15,524 nt of DNA. Origin: Thermoflexales bacterium. Lineage in GTDB: Bacteria; Chloroflexota; Anaerolineae; Fen-1058. Below, piece by piece: positions 1 to 15,149 of this stretch (within the stretch, counting starts at the first letter, position 1; each line of letters begins with the position of its first letter). The DNA lies in contig JAFGFO010000408.1 of assembly GCA_016931085.1 (NCBI GenBank), positions 1-15,524 on the forward strand. The letters are read 5' to 3'. The notes under the pieces are model-generated. The model searched no databases, was not told the DNA's origin, and saw nothing but the letters and a program-made list of their open reading frames with translations. The translations under genes were made by a program, and so were the position numbers.

Positions 1-20
1 CCCTCCCACAAAGGGGAGGG
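1..20. repeat. GC-rich hairpin, probable end of a dispersed palindromic repeat
   Basis: CCCTCCC (1-7) and GGGAGGG (14-20) form a perfect 7-bp stem around a 6-nt loop. The core resembles the hairpin at 9263-9285 (CCCTCCCCC / GGGGGAGGG), so this is probably part of a second copy of that element cut by the window edge. The stretch 21-174 shows no gene and no promoter that I can support. Confidence 0.5.
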
Positions 21-128
21 GGATTGGACTGCACGGCGGTGGGTGATGGGCGTTTACAAAGCAGTCAACTGATTTTGGTCACACCCGATTGATTTGCACG
101 TTTGCTTTTCGCATTGCGTCCCTATTTT

Positions 129-157
129 AACGCCAAGTCGCCGAGTCGCCAAGTCGG
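129..157. repeat. 8-nt periodic repeat (CGCCAAGT type)
   Basis: Units CGCCAAGT, CGCCGAGT and CGCCAAGT follow each other directly from 131, then CGGGCG. It belongs to the same style of short-period intergenic repeat as 1583-1643, 8978-9009 and 11968-11990. It lies about 20 bases upstream of the -35 box of the first gene. Confidence 0.5.
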
Positions 158-174
158 GCGCCGCCCACGTGATG

Positions 175-203
175 TTGACAAACCGTGCTCTAGTCGGTAT
201 AAT
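175..203 (+). promoter_or_regulatory. Consensus sigma70-type promoter for the PEP-CTERM protein gene
   Basis: TTGACA (175-180) and TATAAT (198-203) are both perfect consensus boxes separated by exactly 17 bases. Transcription would begin near 210, leaving a leader of about 137 nt before the ATG at 347. Confidence 0.85.
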
Positions 204-209
204 GTCAGT

Positions 210-346
210 GTTGTCAAGCGTTGACGAGTTGTACCCCCCTTGTCTGATCCTGCCCGGTGCAACTCAAAGAATTGGTGTTGTCAGGAGACAACGCTGTATT
301 TTCGAGCGTTTTTATTTGGATAAACGTGTTCGAATAGGAGTTGCAC
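210..346 (+). promoter_or_regulatory. Structured 5' leader with two overlapping hairpins
   Basis: GTTGTC (277-282) pairs with GACAAC (287-292) around a 4-nt loop. AACGCT (290-295) pairs with AGCGTT (305-310), which is followed at once by a T-rich run (309-317). The two stems share bases 290-292, so they cannot form fully together. The second resembles a weak intrinsic terminator, and the arrangement could be an attenuator. No known riboswitch consensus was recognised. The Shine-Dalgarno sequence AGGAG is at 336-340. Confidence 0.35.
336..340 (+). promoter_or_regulatory. Ribosome binding site AGGAG deciding the ATG at 347
   Basis: AGGAG ends six bases before ATG 347 and directly abuts the in-frame TTG at 341, which is too close to be used. 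This fixes the start of the PEP-CTERM protein gene. Confidence 0.75.
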
Positions 347-1555
347 ATGACTTGGAGGAGAATATTCAAAGCTCTCAGCCTGGCTGTCGTAGGGCTGGCT
401 GTCATCTTGCTAGCCGCCAGCCCCGGGCGGCTTGCTGCCCAGGGCGGTCCCATCACCCTGGATGGTGACGGCGGCGACTGGAACCCGGCCTGGCAAGTCG
501 CAACGGATGGCTTGGATGTGTCTATCACCGGCACAAGGGATCATCCTCACGATGCCCCCACATATGCCCGCAGCGGCTATGATGCCACTGCGCTGTGGGC
601 CTACTATGACGCCGCCGGGGCAACGTGGTATTTCCGGCTGGACGTGGATGGGCGGCCTGGTGATTCGGACAGCCAGACCGGCACAGCCGGCAATCCGGGG
701 GTAGGCACCCATGGGCCGGATAGTGGCCCACTGGTGAGTGCTTCCTTCACTGACGGCAATGGCTTGGGGACTTCGGAAACGTACAGGCTCGGCTTCACCT
801 ACGAGTTGCCTGCTTCTGGGGTGAGTGTCATGTCGGCCGAGCTAGGGCCTGGTGCAGGCATTCTGCCTGGCACACCTTCTGCTCTATCAGGCCTGGTGGG
901 TCAGGGTATCTATGGCACAGGGGTGAACCCCGGTGTGATCGAGTTCGCTTTTGCTCAAGCTGTGCTTTTCCCAAGCGGGGCCAGTCCTGAAAACGAGCTG
1001 TGGCTGTCAGCCCAGGCCGGCGACAATCAAGATAACGTTTCGGACGACACGGTTCCGGTCGTCTTGTTAACTGCCATGGATTTGGACCTGGCTGCCGCGT
1101 GCTCGACAATACCTGCGGCCGTCTCCGTGGGAGACCAGGTAGCCCTGGCCGTCGACTATGTCGTCCCCAGCGCGATGGCGATGGACCACCTCAATGACGT
1201 GGTGCTGACTGCCAACGTTCCGGCCGGGACGACTTTTGTCAGCGCCACCAACGGTGGCGCCGAGTCGGGCGGTGTCATCACCTGGAGGCTGGGTAACCTG
1301 AACAGCGGCACGAGCGCTCGAGTGTCCTTCACCGTGCGCCTGGACACGCTGGGAACCATCACTGTCCAGACCGGGCTGCGGAGCGCCGAGGGGCTGCGGG
1401 ACGTGGCGACGACCCAATGCGCGGTGGCTGCTCCAGTTCAGCCCTCGACTCCATCCGCAGTGCCCGAGGCCTCGACCTTGATCCTGCTGAGCAGCGCCGT
1501 CTCTGGCCTGGCGGGCTATGCCGCGCTGCAGATTCGGGCCCGCCGCCGCAAGTAG
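347..1555 (+). CDS. Exported DUF11-type protein with PEP-CTERM-like sorting signal
   Basis: This 402-residue protein is predicted to be exported and handled at the membrane by an exosortase. Residues 1-31 form a signal peptide (MTWRRIFK, then a hydrophobic stretch ending ..RLAAQ). Residues 33-240 begin ITLDGDGGDW and look like a secreted beta-sandwich of unknown binding role, with a CBM9-like flavour only. Residues 246-355 match the DUF11 repeat-domain pattern (VPAGTTFVSAT, ITWRLGNLNSG) and are bracketed by the Cys pair C252/C358, a possible disulfide. Residues 372-402 are the sorting tail: VPEAS, a hydrophobic helix, then RARRRK. This departs from the usual PEP tail only in Ala for the second Pro. 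The ATG at 347 was chosen over the in-frame TTG at 341 because AGGAG (336-340) is 6 bases before it. The exosortase gene follows 106 bp downstream. The role of the mature protein is unknown. Confidence 0.85.
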   Translation: MTWRRIFKALSLAVVGLAVILLAASPGRLAAQGGPITLDGDGGDWNPAWQVATDGLDVSITGTRDHPHDAPTYARSGYDATALWAYYDAAGATWYFRLDVDGRPGDSDSQTGTAGNPGVGTHGPDSGPLVSASFTDGNGLGTSETYRLGFTYELPASGVSVMSAELGPGAGILPGTPSALSGLVGQGIYGTGVNPGVIEFAFAQAVLFPSGASPENELWLSAQAGDNQDNVSDDTVPVVLLTAMDLDLAAACSTIPAAVSVGDQVALAVDYVVPSAMAMDHLNDVVLTANVPAGTTFVSATNGGAESGGVITWRLGNLNSGTSARVSFTVRLDTLGTITVQTGLRSAEGLRDVATTQCAVAAPVQPSTPSAVPEASTLILLSSAVSGLAGYAALQIRARRRK

Positions 1556-1582
1556 GGGCGCGGTACAGAATGAAAATTTTTC

Positions 1583-1643
1583 ACCGCAAAGGACACAAAG
1601 GTCACAAAGGGTTTCTTCTTGGTGTCCTTGGTGTCCTTGGTGG
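1583..1643. repeat. Imperfect inverted repeat (ACAAAGG type) in the exosortase leader
   Basis: The left arm (1583-1605) contains AAAGGACACAAAGG. The right arm (1621-1643) contains the complementary GTGTCCTTGGTGTCCTTGG. By hand 19 of 23 positions pair, around a 15-nt loop. It fills most of the gap between the PEP-CTERM gene and the exosortase gene. It has no run of T directly after the stem, so it is not a typical intrinsic terminator. It looks like a dispersed repeat that would fold in the mRNA. Confidence 0.7.
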
Positions 1644-1661
1644 TTTATTTTCAGAACAGCG

Positions 1662-3287
1662 ATGAAGTGGGCCGTTGCCTACGGCCTCGTCGCCGGCCTG
1701 GCCAGCCTGCTGTTTTATCCCGCCCTGGCCTGGCTTGCCCACTCGTGGCTGAGCAATCCCTACTACGGGCATGGCTTCCTCCTGCCGCCCTTGGCTGCGT
1801 TCCTGGCCTGGCAAAACTGCAAGCGCGTCGCCGCCGAGCCACGCCAGGGATTGGCCAGGGCCGGGCTTGCTCTCACGCTGGCCAGCCTGGCTGCCGCCCT
1901 ATGGGCCATGTACTGGCAAGACTATTTTGCGGCCTGCCTGGTTCTGCTGGCCTTGCTGGCCGCCGTACTGCTTTACCTCGAGGGCTGGCGCCGGCTCAGG
2001 CATTGGCTCTTTCCACTGTTCTTCCTGGCCTTGATGGTTCCGCTGCCCTGTGTAGACATGGCCAGTCCCTGGTTCGAGGCTTTTACCGCGCGTTGGGCGG
2101 CGGCCGCCGCCCGCCTGGTTGGCATCCCGGCCGTGCAGCAGGGCAGCCAGCTCGTCTTGCCGGGGACCAGCTTCGTCGTAGGCGCCCCGTGCAGCGGGCT
2201 GCGCTCGCTGGTGGCCATGGTCACGGTGGCGGTGGGCTGGATTTACGTCGTGGATGGGCGGCCGGCTGCCAAGGCGCTGATGCTGGCGGCCGTCGTGCCG
2301 CTGGTAGCGCTTGCTAACGTCTTGCGCATCGCCATCTTGTTGGGAGTGGCGGCTGGCCTGGGCCAGGCAGCCGCTTTGAGCTACTATCACGACTGGTCCA
2401 GCCCGCTCTTGTTTATGGTTGCGCTGGGACTGCTGCTCGGGCTGGGCAAGGTGCTGGGGTGTTCCCGCATTCGGGACGATTGGGTATCGCCAGGAAATCA
2501 CACGCTATGTCAAGCGGGCGAGTCCTTTCCTTCCCGCTCTTTTGTTGTGATCGTCGCGCTGCTGGCTGCCAGCACCCTCATCGCCTGGGGGCAGCGCTGG
2601 CTCGTGGCGTCCAGGCTGCCTCCCCCCATGACAACCGTGGCTGGCCGCCAGGATAACAGCCCGCTGCCTGCGGCCCACGTCTACTTTGTCGACCTGGAAG
2701 GCTGGTATCGCATCACCCCCTACGAGACAGCCGTCAACAGCCCTTACGATTTGACGAGTCGCACCAACCAGGCGCTGGGGGCTGCCCTGCCGGCCGCCCT
2801 GGGCGAATGGCAGCAGGTGGGCCCGGCGCGGTCCCTGGCCGACGACCCGCTGGTGGTCGAATACCTGGGGCACCCCAGCCTGGCCTTCCAGCGGGATTAC
2901 CAGGATGCGTCGGGGCAAAAGCTCTCGTTGGTCATCATTGGAAATGAGGGGGACGACAGTTTCTTGCTCTTTAGCCACACGCCTGAAATCTGTTATCCCA
3001 GCAGCTCGTGGCGCATCATCGAAAATTGCCGCGAGTCGGCCGTGTTGGACGACCGGCCGATGTACGCCCGTTATTTGCTGACCGAGTTCACTCAGACCGG
3101 CGAGCGGCTGGTCGTCCTATACTGGTACTTGTGGGACAATGCTCAGCGTGACTCGCGAGATGGCGTGTTGTCGATGCGCGTCAACGTCTACGTTCTGCCA
3201 GGCCAAAGCGAAGCGGCTGCTCTGGCCCGTGCCTGGGACTTTGTGCGGCAGCTCTTTCCGGCGACTGTGGCCTGGAAGCGATTTTAG
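1662..3287 (+). CDS. Exosortase fused to an EpsI (DUF3485) domain
   Basis: Exosortases are polytopic membrane enzymes thought to cleave PEP-CTERM-type tails by a cysteine transpeptidase-like mechanism. Of the 541 residues, 1-265 form the exosortase core with about eight hydrophobic segments. They include the N-terminal NPYYGHGF motif (32-39), the catalytic-type Cys177 in GAPCSGLRSL, Arg222 in NVLRI and His243 in YYHDWSS, so the family's Cys-Arg-His triad is complete. A further hydrophobic segment (about 293-309) leads into the DUF3485/EpsI domain (about 340-541), with the hallmark SHTPEICYP (438-446). Such fusions are known in some exosortase subtypes; I cannot assign this one. The start at ATG 1662 avoids a 48-codon upstream extension that only translates the inverted repeat. 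No convincing Shine-Dalgarno precedes it. The substrate gene lies immediately upstream; no exopolysaccharide genes are visible nearby. Confidence 0.9.
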   Translation: MKWAVAYGLVAGLASLLFYPALAWLAHSWLSNPYYGHGFLLPPLAAFLAWQNCKRVAAEPRQGLARAGLALTLASLAAALWAMYWQDYFAACLVLLALLAAVLLYLEGWRRLRHWLFPLFFLALMVPLPCVDMASPWFEAFTARWAAAAARLVGIPAVQQGSQLVLPGTSFVVGAPCSGLRSLVAMVTVAVGWIYVVDGRPAAKALMLAAVVPLVALANVLRIAILLGVAAGLGQAAALSYYHDWSSPLLFMVALGLLLGLGKVLGCSRIRDDWVSPGNHTLCQAGESFPSRSFVVIVALLAASTLIAWGQRWLVASRLPPPMTTVAGRQDNSPLPAAHVYFVDLEGWYRITPYETAVNSPYDLTSRTNQALGAALPAALGEWQQVGPARSLADDPLVVEYLGHPSLAFQRDYQDASGQKLSLVIIGNEGDDSFLLFSHTPEICYPSSSWRIIENCRESAVLDDRPMYARYLLTEFTQTGERLVVLYWYLWDNAQRDSRDGVLSMRVNVYVLPGQSEAAALARAWDFVRQLFPATVAWKRF

Positions 3288-3357
3288 AGCCAATGCCTTT
3301 CAAATAAGCTGCGTTGTTTGAAAAGCCTTTCATTTGCAGATTGGCTGATTTGCACTA

Positions 3358-3385
3358 TTGACAGATTCGCTCCAGGCAGTATAAT
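3358..3385 (+). promoter_or_regulatory. Promoter of the exonuclease III gene, probably giving leaderless mRNA
   Basis: TTGACA (3358-3363) and TATAAT (3380-3385) are perfect boxes with a 16-base spacer. The ATG at 3392 starts six bases after the -10 box, where transcription itself should start, and no Shine-Dalgarno is present. Two ATTTGCA direct repeats (3332-3338 and 3348-3354) sit just upstream of the -35 box and could be an operator or chance. Confidence 0.8.
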
Positions 3386-3391
3386 GGCGTC

Positions 3392-4174
3392 ATGCAACAA
3401 ACAATCACTCTCCTTTCTTGGAACGTCAACGGCGCACGGGCCGTGTATAACAAGGGCTTTTTAGACTGGCTGGCTGAGGCCAAGCCGGACGTTTTGTGCC
3501 TGCAAGAGACCAGGGCTGAAGAGCTCCAAGTGCCGCCGGCTTTAGCCCAACCGGAGGGCTACCGGGGCTTTTGGAACGCCTCACGGGCGAAAAAAGGCTA
3601 CAGTGGCACGGCCCTTCTCACTCGCCTGGAGCCGGAGGAAGTGAGCTTTGGGTTGGGGGTCGAGGAATTCGACCAGGAAGGGCGCACCATCATCGCTCGT
3701 TTCCCCACCTTTACTCTCCTCAATTGCTATTTCCCCAACGGTGGGCGTGATCATGGCCGCGTGCCGTTCAAGCTGGCTTTTTACGAGGCCTTCCTGGCCC
3801 GCTGCGAAGCGCTGCGGGCGGCCGGCCAGGCGCTCGTCTTTTGCGGTGATGTCAACACAGCCCACCGCGAGATCGACCTGGCTCACCCCAAGGCCAACGA
3901 GAAGACGACCGGCTTTTTGCCTGAAGAACGGGCCTGGATCGATCGCTTCGTACAGGCCGGCTACGTCGACACCTTCCGGCATTTTTACCCCGACCTGGCC
4001 GAGCAGTACACCTGGTGGTCGGTGCCCATGCGCGCCCGCGAGCGCAACGTCGGCTGGCGGATCGACTATTTCTTTGTGGCTAGTGAGGTCCTGGATCGCA
4101 TCGAGGATGCCTTTACCTTGCCCGAGGTGATGGGCAGCGACCATTGCCCGGTGGGCTTGCGTTTGAGGCTGTAG
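3392..4174 (+). CDS. xth: Exodeoxyribonuclease III (AP endonuclease, Xth family)
   Basis: This cytoplasmic base-excision-repair enzyme cuts DNA at abasic sites and degrades duplex DNA 3' to 5'. The 260 residues are the normal length and span one endonuclease/exonuclease/phosphatase domain. Visible motifs are SWNVNGARA (9-17), the metal-binding Glu39 in LQET, CYFPNGG with catalytic-type Tyr113, GDVN with Asp153 and Asn155 (GDFN or GDLN in many relatives), GWRIDYFF near residue 222, and the C-terminal GSDHCP with Asp250 and His251. All active-site residues expected for the family are present. The start at ATG 3392 is set by homology and by the promoter, which places the transcript start at or next to the ATG. 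The P-type ATPase gene follows after 27 bases and is probably co-transcribed, though no functional link is obvious. Confidence 0.95.
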   Translation: MQQTITLLSWNVNGARAVYNKGFLDWLAEAKPDVLCLQETRAEELQVPPALAQPEGYRGFWNASRAKKGYSGTALLTRLEPEEVSFGLGVEEFDQEGRTIIARFPTFTLLNCYFPNGGRDHGRVPFKLAFYEAFLARCEALRAAGQALVFCGDVNTAHREIDLAHPKANEKTTGFLPEERAWIDRFVQAGYVDTFRHFYPDLAEQYTWWSVPMRARERNVGWRIDYFFVASEVLDRIEDAFTLPEVMGSDHCPVGLRLRL

Positions 4175-7938: not shown

Positions 7939-7983
7939 CGATTAATAATTAACAATTAACAATTAATAATTAACTATTAATCG
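7939..7983. repeat. AT-rich heptamer repeat with inverted ends
   Basis: Tandem AATTAAC/AATTAAT-type units are bounded by perfect 8-bp inverted ends, CGATTAAT (7939-7946) and ATTAATCG (7976-7983). Extending the arms gives 13 of 14 pairs. It fills the junction between the methyltransferase and EamA genes, supplies the last codons and TAA stop of the former, and may supply a TTG start for the latter. A related copy is at 13696-13729. Confidence 0.75.
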
Positions 7984-8821
7984 TTAATACGGCTTCCCAG
8001 CCGACCAGGGCCTTTTTCCGCGCCGTGCCCCAGCGATAGTTCCCGACCTGGCCCGTTTTCTGGATCACCCGGTGGCATGGGATGAGGACTGAGATCGGGT
8101 TTTGCCCCACGGCGTTGCCCACAGCGCGCGCGGCGGCCGGCAGCCCAAGCCGGGCCGCAATGTCCTGGTACGAGCTGAGCGCTCCCGGCGGGATCTCGAG
8201 CAGCGCTTCCCACACCTTGAGTTGGAAATTTGTCCCGCTCAAAAACAGGCTGAGCGGGGTGTCTCCTGACCGCTCGAAGCGGGTGAAGGCTTGCTGGGCC
8301 AGCCGCCCGGTGCGCTCTGCATCCTGCGCCAGTTTGGCCCTGGGCCACCGGCTTTGGAGATCCTCGACGGCAAGCTCCCGGCTGCCGCTTACAAAGGCCA
8401 GGTGACAAATCCCCCGCCCGGTGAGTCCCAGCAGGCATTCGCCAAACGGGCTGGGATGAAAGCCGTAAGCGATCGTCAAGCCTCGACCTTTGTTCTTGAA
8501 TTCGCCTGGCGTGACGGCTTCGCAGGTGACGAACAGCTCGTGCAGGCGGCTGGGGCCAGATAGCCCAGATTCATAGCTGACCTCGAGCAGGGGGCGAGAT
8601 TTTTCTAGCAGTGCCTTGGCGTGCTCCTTGGTCAGGAATTGCAGAAAGCGCTTGGGGCTGATGCCGACCCAGCGCGTGAACAGCCGCTGAAAGTGATACT
8701 CGCTGAGGCTGGCGCTGGCGGCGATTTCGCCCAGGCTTGGCTGGGTGTGAACATTCCCTTCGAGGAAGCGAATGGCCTGCTCGATCCGGGCATAGTCCTG
8801 CGATGACTGGCTGTAATCCAT
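7970..8821 (-). CDS. AraC-type HTH fused to O6-methylguanine-DNA methyltransferase (Ada-like)
   Basis: The 283 residues combine an N-terminal AraC-type DNA-binding domain with a C-terminal suicidal DNA alkyl-transfer domain. The HTH part (about 8-110) has SLGEIAASASLSEYHFQRLF and GISPKRFL. Residues 115-195 are the Ogt N-terminal domain. Residues 196-283 carry the transferase signature: FQLKVWEALLEIPPG, SSYQDIA (Tyr218), Arg232 in ARAVGNA, and PCHRV with the acceptor Cys249. The N-terminal zinc-cysteine domain of E. coli Ada is absent, so phosphotriester sensing by that route is not expected. Repair of O6-alkylguanine is well supported; any regulatory role is inferred. The ATG at 8821 has only a weak AGGT before it. 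The final codons (TINS) and TAA stop come from the adjacent AT-rich repeat. The EamA exporter lies downstream on the same strand. Confidence 0.92.
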   Translation of the reverse strand: MDYSQSSQDYARIEQAIRFLEGNVHTQPSLGEIAASASLSEYHFQRLFTRWVGISPKRFLQFLTKEHAKALLEKSRPLLEVSYESGLSGPSRLHELFVTCEAVTPGEFKNKGRGLTIAYGFHPSPFGECLLGLTGRGICHLAFVSGSRELAVEDLQSRWPRAKLAQDAERTGRLAQQAFTRFERSGDTPLSLFLSGTNFQLKVWEALLEIPPGALSSYQDIAARLGLPAAARAVGNAVGQNPISVLIPCHRVIQKTGQVGNYRWGTARKKALVGWEAVLTINS

Positions 8822-14836: not shown

Positions 14837-14840
14837 GCAA

Positions 14841-14912
14841 TACCCCTGCCGGGAATTGAACCCAGGTCTCAGCCTCCGCAGGGCTGCGCTCTATCCGCTG
14901 AGCTACAGGGGC
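14841..14912 (-). tRNA. tRNA-Arg, anticodon GCG
   Basis: This is a 72-nt cloverleaf. The acceptor stem GCCCCTG pairs with CAGGGGT (one G-U at the end); the D stem is GCTC/GAGC. The anticodon stem CAGCC/GGCTG holds loop CTGCGGA, so bases 34-36 are GCG and read CGC and CGU. The T arm is CTGGG-TTCAATT-CCCGG, and the discriminator is A. No CCA is encoded. Bacteria usually read these codons with an ACG (inosine) tRNA, so GCG is notable. It is last in the tRNA operon. Confidence 0.9.
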
Positions 14913-14920
14913 ACACAAAG

Positions 14921-15011
14921 CGGGGAGGCAGGGATTCGAACCCTGGGAGGAGTTATTAGACCCCTCAACCGCTTAGCAGGCGGCTCCGATCAACCACTCC
15001 GGCACCTCCCC
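14921..15011 (-). tRNA. tRNA-Ser, anticodon GCT
   Basis: This 91-nt class II tRNA has a long variable arm. Acceptor GGGGAGG pairs with CCTCCCC, the anticodon loop is CTGCTAA (GCT, reading AGC/AGU), and the T arm contains GGGTTCGAATCCC. The discriminator is G, typical of tRNA-Ser. No CCA is encoded. Confidence 0.95.
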
Positions 15012-15064
15012 AAACACGAGACATTCTGCAGACTGCAGCCTGCAGGCTATGTTCAAGTACAAGG

Positions 15065-15149
15065 CGGAGGGGGTGGGATTCGAACCCACGGTGACTTGCG
15101 CCACAACGGTTTTCAAGACCGTCGCCTTCGTCCACTCGGCCACCCCTCC
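15065..15149 (-). tRNA. tRNA-Ser, anticodon TGA
   Basis: This 85-nt class II tRNA has acceptor GGAGGGG paired with CCCCTCC. The anticodon stem ACGGT/ACCGT holds loop CTTGAAA (TGA, reading UCA and probably other UCN codons). It has a variable arm and T arm GTGGGTTCGAATCCCAC. The discriminator is G and no CCA is encoded. It is first in the tRNA operon. Confidence 0.95.

Follow-up and report, generated by a model that had tools for sequence, protein, structure and literature searches.

The best described relatives of the system studied here are the bacterial PEP-CTERM/EpsH systems, of the XrtA type, in which a Cys-Arg-His enzyme with eight transmembrane (TM) segments and an EpsI domain is matched to exported proteins with a tripartite tail (P-E-x motif, helix and basic end), one enzyme serving several diverse targets (PMC1569441). 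In the founding description (Haft et al. 2006, PMC1569441), all PEP-CTERM bacteria had an outer membrane and exopolysaccharide (EPS) genes, epsH lay nearly always among the EPS genes, the median number of tails was 8, and EpsI regions were fused to or next to EpsH. We have analyzed a pair of genes at positions 347-3287 of a 15,524-nucleotide stretch of DNA (contig JAFGFO010000408.1; the whole stretch is called the window), encoding an exported protein with a PEP-CTERM-type tail, termed the substrate, and an exosortase. The pair shares the Cys-Arg-His set, the EpsI domain and the tripartite tail of the EpsH systems. Its relatives in Anaerolineae differ from those systems in that almost all are without Omp85 and Wza-type export, no EPS gene is seen among the sampled neighbors of their exosortase genes, and genomes have a median of 2 tails. 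Our reading of the pair as a whole, to which we give a probability of roughly 0.75, is that it belongs to an Anaerolineae-type exosortase system serving a small set of tail-sharing proteins in a single-membrane cell.

Sorting by a member of the exosortase superfamily in cells without an outer membrane is represented by archaeosortase A, which differs in being archaeal, in having S-layer glycoproteins as targets, and in the motif of its PGF-CTERM tails. Archaeosortase A/PGF-CTERM is named in a paper on rhombosortase and its GlyGly-CTERM targets (PMC3237569), in which target and enzyme genes are consecutive, as in our pair, and protein families carry interchangeable LPXTG, PEP-CTERM and GlyGly-CTERM tails. 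Rhombosortase is, however, an unrelated protease, and adjacency there marks genomes with a single target, which it does not in the exosortase genomes of Anaerolineae. Cyanoexosortase B of Nostoc punctiforme (PMC12188702) resembles our system in having a companion gene directly downstream, but has 35 putative targets and lies in a diderm host, in a polysaccharide locus with a Wza-type exporter.

The features of the pair are as follows.

347-1555, forward strand: gene for an exported PEP-CTERM-type substrate of 402 residues (signal peptide, CBM9-like domain, DUF11/Ig-like stalk and VPEAS tail)
434-1075, forward strand: N-terminal beta-sandwich, CBM9/DOMON-like
1190-1393, forward strand: DUF11 domain, Ig-like stalk
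1460-1552, forward strand: sorting tail, comprising VPEAS, a hydrophobic helix (residues 375-401 in the structural model) and RARRRK
1662-3287, forward strand: gene for an exosortase (EpsH family) fused to EpsI/DUF3485, 541 residues
2190-2192, forward strand: codon of Cys177 (GAPCSGLRS)
2325-2327, forward strand: codon of Arg222 (NVLRI)
2388-2390, forward strand: codon of His243 (YYHDWSSP)
2769-3131, forward strand: EpsI/DUF3485 domain of the fusion (PF11984, E = 2.4e-13; TIGR02914 at 42.1 bits, just below its cut-off of 42.8)

The sequence-only reading of this DNA had described an exported protein ending in VPEAS, a helix and RARRRK, followed 106 bp later by an exosortase with its full Cys-Arg-His set. 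The coordinates and the Pfam and NCBIfam matches confirm this description, and the pair is genuine. The substrate frame has its best start at ATG 347, with AGGAG 6 nt 5′ of it (336-340), and its stop at 1553-1555. The exosortase frame is open from 1518 to 3287 on the same strand, with a probable start at ATG 1662, where homology begins; the gap of 1556-1661 is thus exactly 106 bp. The enzyme is matched by PF09721 (E = 4e-45, 154.7 bits against a cut-off of 25.7) and TIGR02602 (121.4 against 105.6 bits), while it misses the cut-off of every named NCBIfam exosortase subtype (XrtA, B, C, D, V, W and others), the best being XrtA with 131 against 208 bits. Cys177, Arg222 and His243 are invariant across a ten-row alignment of exosortases (A2). 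Simple hydropathy gives seven strong core segments, and an eighth (293-311) just before EpsI.

That the enzyme is fused to EpsI goes unmentioned in the sequence-only reading. Fusion to EpsI occurs in only one of the close relatives (P0002), the others (P0003-P0011 and P0013) being unfused, and a separate EpsI protein (P0012) exists; the fusion in this clade therefore looks derived. Two distant matches (P0015 and P0017) are also exosortase-EpsI fusions. In a tree of exosortases the enzyme of the window groups with 10 other sequences, all metagenomic, in a clade of 11 rows that has full support.

At the N-terminus the substrate resembles a signal peptide, as judged by eye, and the model places a helix at residues 2-23 as well as at the C-terminus. 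DUF11 passes the Pfam cut-off (E = 8e-7, 29.8 against 24.6 bits), and no NCBIfam model scored above its cut-off in a scan of this protein. A Foldseek search with the whole model returned a list taken up by Ig-like and similar domains. When solved structures were searched by sequence with both proteins no convincing relative emerged, each giving one match at chance level. The substrate looks like a CBM9-like sandwich carried on an Ig-like stalk, and is possibly a sugar binder.

The tail, VPEASTLILLSSAVSGLAGYAALQIRARRRK (residues 372-402), completes the layout of a PEP-CTERM protein, in which a signal peptide at one end is matched at the extreme C-terminus by a P-E-x motif, a hydrophobic helix and a basic end. 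A similar tail, with a PE-type or LPET motif, a hydrophobic stretch and a basic end, is present in 69 of the 80 proteins of the substrate family (P0018-P0097, that of the window included). Since nine other proteins also match the tail region (see below), the tail of the window is not a chance resemblance. Two homologs exceed the curated thresholds, P0095 for PF07589 and P0026 for TIGR02595, and three are titled 'PEP-CTERM sorting domain-containing protein [Anaerolineae bacterium]' by NCBI, so that tails of this kind were already known to automatic annotation. The motif here is indeed PEA and not PEP, as had been pointed out from the sequence, but little weight attaches to this as a variant, because PEA is found in 9 of the 69 family tails, that of the window among them, and also in several relatives.

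Is the enzyme dedicated to its neighbor? The sequence-only reading proposed a one-enzyme, one-substrate system, in which the fusion protein would process the adjacent gene product only, as a self-contained module. The two genes lie next to each other on the same strand with one strong promoter-like site ahead of both, and adjacent dedicated enzyme-target pairs are documented for rhombosortase (PMC3237569). The tails, however, point elsewhere. A search with the last 42 residues of the substrate found nine other proteins that match in the tail region (E = 9e-8 to 0.27); having been found by their tails, these metagenome proteins establish existence, not frequency. Five have VWA domains, one is a short DUF11-like protein (19.8 bits against the cut-off of 24.6), and three have no ectodomain family match; the domain calls for P0107 and P0108 were taken from precomputed annotation. 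The ectodomains form five BLASTP groups, dissimilar to one another and to that of the window. Yet in seven of the nine (the five VWA proteins, P0109 and P0111, representing three architectures other than that of the substrate) 24-27 of 31 residues are identical to the tail of the window, with 18 and 20 in the other two, against a median of 17 of 31 for the 69 tails of the substrate's own family. The tail therefore follows the lineage and not the ectodomain, which is what a single enzyme with several substrates would lead one to expect. Homologs of a VWA protein (47% and 40% identical to P0105) are encoded directly 5′ of exosortases in two genomes (G315 and G087).

The converse is also seen. 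Within the substrate ectodomain family, PEP-CTERM, IPTL-CTERM and LPXTG tails each exceed curated cut-offs in one member, so that the tail behaves as an interchangeable anchor. Taken by itself, this family with PEP-CTERM, IPTL-CTERM-like and LPXTG tails (P0082, P0086, P0091, P0093 and P0096) is of the choice-of-anchor type.

We then turned to the class. The sample comprised 396 genomes drawn evenly from a larger group, whose assignment to Anaerolineae rests on loci in seven of them (G001-G007). Exosortases were sought with profile A2 at E ≤ 1e-15, and found in 75 of the 396; there are 78 loci after merging a split match in G025, and all 78 neighborhoods were read. Tails were sought at E ≤ 1e-3 with a profile (A3) of 29 tails, in which P-E is invariant, the tails having been picked by that motif; several of its rows come from genomes that were later counted, and those tails match by construction. 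At least one tail was found in 67 of the 75 exosortase genomes. The number per genome was 0 in 8, 1 in 27, 2 in 24, 3 in 6, 4-9 in 8, 29 in G173 and 42 in G102, with a median of 2, these counts being lower bounds for genomes that reached 150 or 116 scored candidates. None of 35 exosortase-free control genomes had a tail at the same threshold. The difference (67/75 versus 0/35) gives a Fisher p of 2e-21, a value that ignores kinship and the non-random choice of controls, 15 being taken by closeness of their ExoIII and 20 as the first listed without an exosortase match.

A number of observations weigh against our reading. The tail of the window, taken alone, scores below the PEP-CTERM cut-offs (14.0 against 20.7 bits for PF07589, and no match to TIGR02595). 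Three of 15 control genomes (G231, G061 and G125) gave weak partial tail matches (E = 0.0025-0.025). An IPEP-type tail (L023) is present in G189, a genome outside both sets that has no exosortase at E ≤ 1e-15, and 8 of the 75 exosortase genomes have no tail at E ≤ 1e-3. The nine tail-sharing proteins were found by searching for the tail and sit on other contigs, not demonstrably of the same genome. Lastly, the counts of tails, Omp85 and EPS genes all come from relatives, with exosortases that share about 31-44% identity with that of the window. The low score would suit a tail that is a mere TM anchor beside a degenerate or unrelated exosortase. We consider this very improbable, since the catalytic residues are invariant in A2, tails track the exosortase across genomes, and P-E is constant in A3, by whose motif those tails were picked.

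In 22 of the 75 genomes the exosortase has a tailed gene no more than 3 kb away, whereas roughly 0.34 such genomes would be expected by chance. Gene order in relatives had been proposed as support for a dedicated pair, and the adjacency is indeed there, but genomes with a single tail are not favored. Exactly one detectable tail is present in 27 of the 75, which is in favor of dedication, and in 7 of these 27 enzyme and tail are at most 3 kb apart, as compared with 15 of 40 genomes with several tails (Fisher p = 0.43). The class thus does tend to keep the two genes together, but this is no predictor of a single target. Nor was there a sign of pairing in 11 closer exosortase relatives (P0002-P0011 and P0013, 61-84% identical), none of which could be tied to a listed substrate homolog; this is an indirect check, in which two contigs are of 58 and 200 kb and the others, under 6 kb, tell little. 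With near-identical tails on other ectodomains and between 0 and 42 tails per exosortase genome, we regard a strictly dedicated pair as unlikely; that a few proteins share the enzyme is more probable than one-to-one dedication.

The opposite view is that the adjacency is incidental, the system being of the ordinary many-to-one kind and the neighborhood without regulatory or functional meaning. In keeping with it, no tail was detected within 3 kb of the enzyme in 53 of the 75 genomes, the two genes of the window have a palindromic repeat between them, and adjacency on the upstream side must have changed 5 times to fit the tree, with well-supported branches forcing at least 2 of these changes. 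The excess of 22 genomes over the chance expectation speaks against it, as do the 14 loci, in 13 genomes, where the tailed gene lies 5′ of the exosortase on the same strand and within about 0.6 kb. We think that pure coincidence, too, is improbable.

Six of the PEP-CTERM-tailed frames in the class are only 106-128 residues long from stop to stop (L119, L132, L134, L143 and L128, in G057, G099, G353, G325 and G312, respectively). Five of these micro-substrates have a signal-peptide-like start and a short linker but no ectodomain, and are directly 5′ of, or overlap, the exosortase gene. The sixth, the second in L128, was seen by length and tail only.

EpsI is an almost constant companion of these enzymes. 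In 77 of the 78 loci the exosortase frame is overlapped by an EpsI-like frame of the same strand or has one no more than 0.42 kb away; in the remaining one (L138) a weak match is 2.3 kb away. Exosortase and EpsI share a single frame in none of the 78.

What kind of envelope do these proteins enter? Omp85 was detected in 1 of the 75 exosortase genomes, by a search that was positive in 7 of 14 controls; the sole match (G180:C454:1918-2901, L148, E = 2e-88) is possibly contamination. Poly_export/Wza was found in 3 of the 75 (G336, G007 and G019), with 4 of 14 controls positive. The EPS-initiating transferase PF02397 is present in all 75 exosortase genomes examined, so that EPS production itself is likely. 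No EPS gene was found beside the exosortases of relatives among 10 neighbors scanned (6 loci) of 79 listed from 14 relatives; those scanned include gyrase B, fumarase and a UvrD helicase with an intein. Similarly, the absence of EPS genes noted from the sequence alone holds for the window, almost all of which lies 3′ of the pair.

Anaerolineae or Chloroflexota are described as being without outer-membrane genes (PMC6013643, PMC13319060), and a diderm-like envelope has been seen in tomograms of some Chloroflexota (PMC13319060). Judged by gene content, exosortase/PEP-CTERM sorting apparently operates in Anaerolineae cells without an outer membrane, contrary to the founding description. In the open-access literature on exosortase/PEP-CTERM in Anaerolineae, Chloroflexi, Chloroflexota or monoderms we found no account of this by title and start of abstract, not every paper having been opened. 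For the class as a whole we tentatively suggest, with slightly less than even confidence, that the exosortase provides surface anchoring in single-membrane cells: a single protein or a few, in many cases with the gene directly 5′ of that for the enzyme and sometimes with little beyond signal peptide, linker and tail, would be joined to an envelope component in the manner of archaeosortase A or sortase.

For the pair in the window we envisage the following. The substrate would be exported by its signal peptide, and its C-terminal helix would keep it in the cytoplasmic membrane. The exosortase, through its Cys-Arg-His site, would cleave at or near VPEAS and either hand the CBM9-like domain on its Ig-like stalk to a surface acceptor or release it, with EpsI, here fused to the enzyme, assisting. 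Most likely a few proteins of this genome, all carrying the tail of the lineage, are handled by the enzyme, the product of the adjacent gene being one of them. As an outer membrane is probably absent, the envelope would have a single membrane, and the acceptor would belong to its lipids, cell wall or polysaccharides.

The class-wide setting is more interesting than the pair, in that the enzymes usually sort one to three detectable proteins where an outer membrane is apparently absent. About a fifth of the sampled Anaerolineae (75/396) carry an exosortase while showing hardly any trace of an outer membrane, and could reveal the exosortase acceptor in cells where no such membrane needs to be crossed. 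The nature of the Chloroflexota envelope is still a matter of debate (PMC13319060), and systems with one to three substrates should lend themselves to dissection more readily than systems with dozens.

The attribution of the window to Chloroflexota is upheld, Anaerolineae being the most likely class. The substrate has 88 homologs, and those with a named organism all come from metagenome-assembled genomes of 'Chloroflexi bacterium' or 'Anaerolineae bacterium'. For the ExoIII encoded in the window, the twelve best matches in the 396 genomes have identities of 72-76%, and none of the genomes nearest by ExoIII has the substrate family. A search for that family in 7 genomes gave matches in the tail region only. 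In the 396, 12 genomes had matches, in the DUF11 region or the tail, as did 1, 4 and 1 genomes in orders of 25, 20 and 6. The N-terminal domain was found in 0 of the 396, 25, 20 and 6 genomes (the last three sets apparently lying within the 396), and the closer lineage of the window is therefore absent from the genomes sampled. A scan of genome contigs gave 19 loci, the best segment being 43% identical.

Two further elements flank the substrate gene; only 346 bp of sequence precede the pair.

175-203, forward strand: sigma-70-type promoter, TTGACA-17-TATAAT, ahead of the substrate gene (12/12 consensus positions; a consensus match only)
1583-1644, forward strand: palindromic repeat, a potential RNA hairpin, between the genes

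Positions 1-3500 contain 3 promoter-like sites, against a mean of 0.6 in shuffled sequence. The palindrome fills most of the gap, and the segment 1552-1670 folds with −39.2 kcal/mol (z = −2.86). It contains a repeat of the type AAGGACACAAAGG; in a distant genome, G283, the corresponding gap of two loci (L116 and L140) holds a related repeat that matches it over 35 bases (88.6%). The palindrome is probably a dispersed repeat, and may have an attenuating role. We considered whether the hairpin is a conserved attenuator and decided against this, since the sequences by which several of the gaps fold are unrelated and the hairpin of the window is built from the dispersed-type repeat.

The genes 3′ of the pair encode, by Pfam, ExoIII, a P-type ATPase, an EamA transporter, an AraC/MGMT fusion, a GH9-like protein, a DUF5107 protein and an esterase. 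The fusion (7970-8821) joins an AraC-type helix-turn-helix to an O6-methylguanine-DNA methyltransferase, and is thus Ada-like. Three tRNA genes, Arg(gcg), Ser(gct) and Ser(tga), stand in a row on the minus strand at 14840-15149. Near one exosortase of the class, a frame for a UvrD-type helicase (L103:3953-6010) contains an intein splicing domain. A perfect TTGACA-16-TATAAT promoter at 3358-3391 ends 6 nt before the ATG of the ExoIII gene (3392), which suggests a leaderless or nearly leaderless mRNA.

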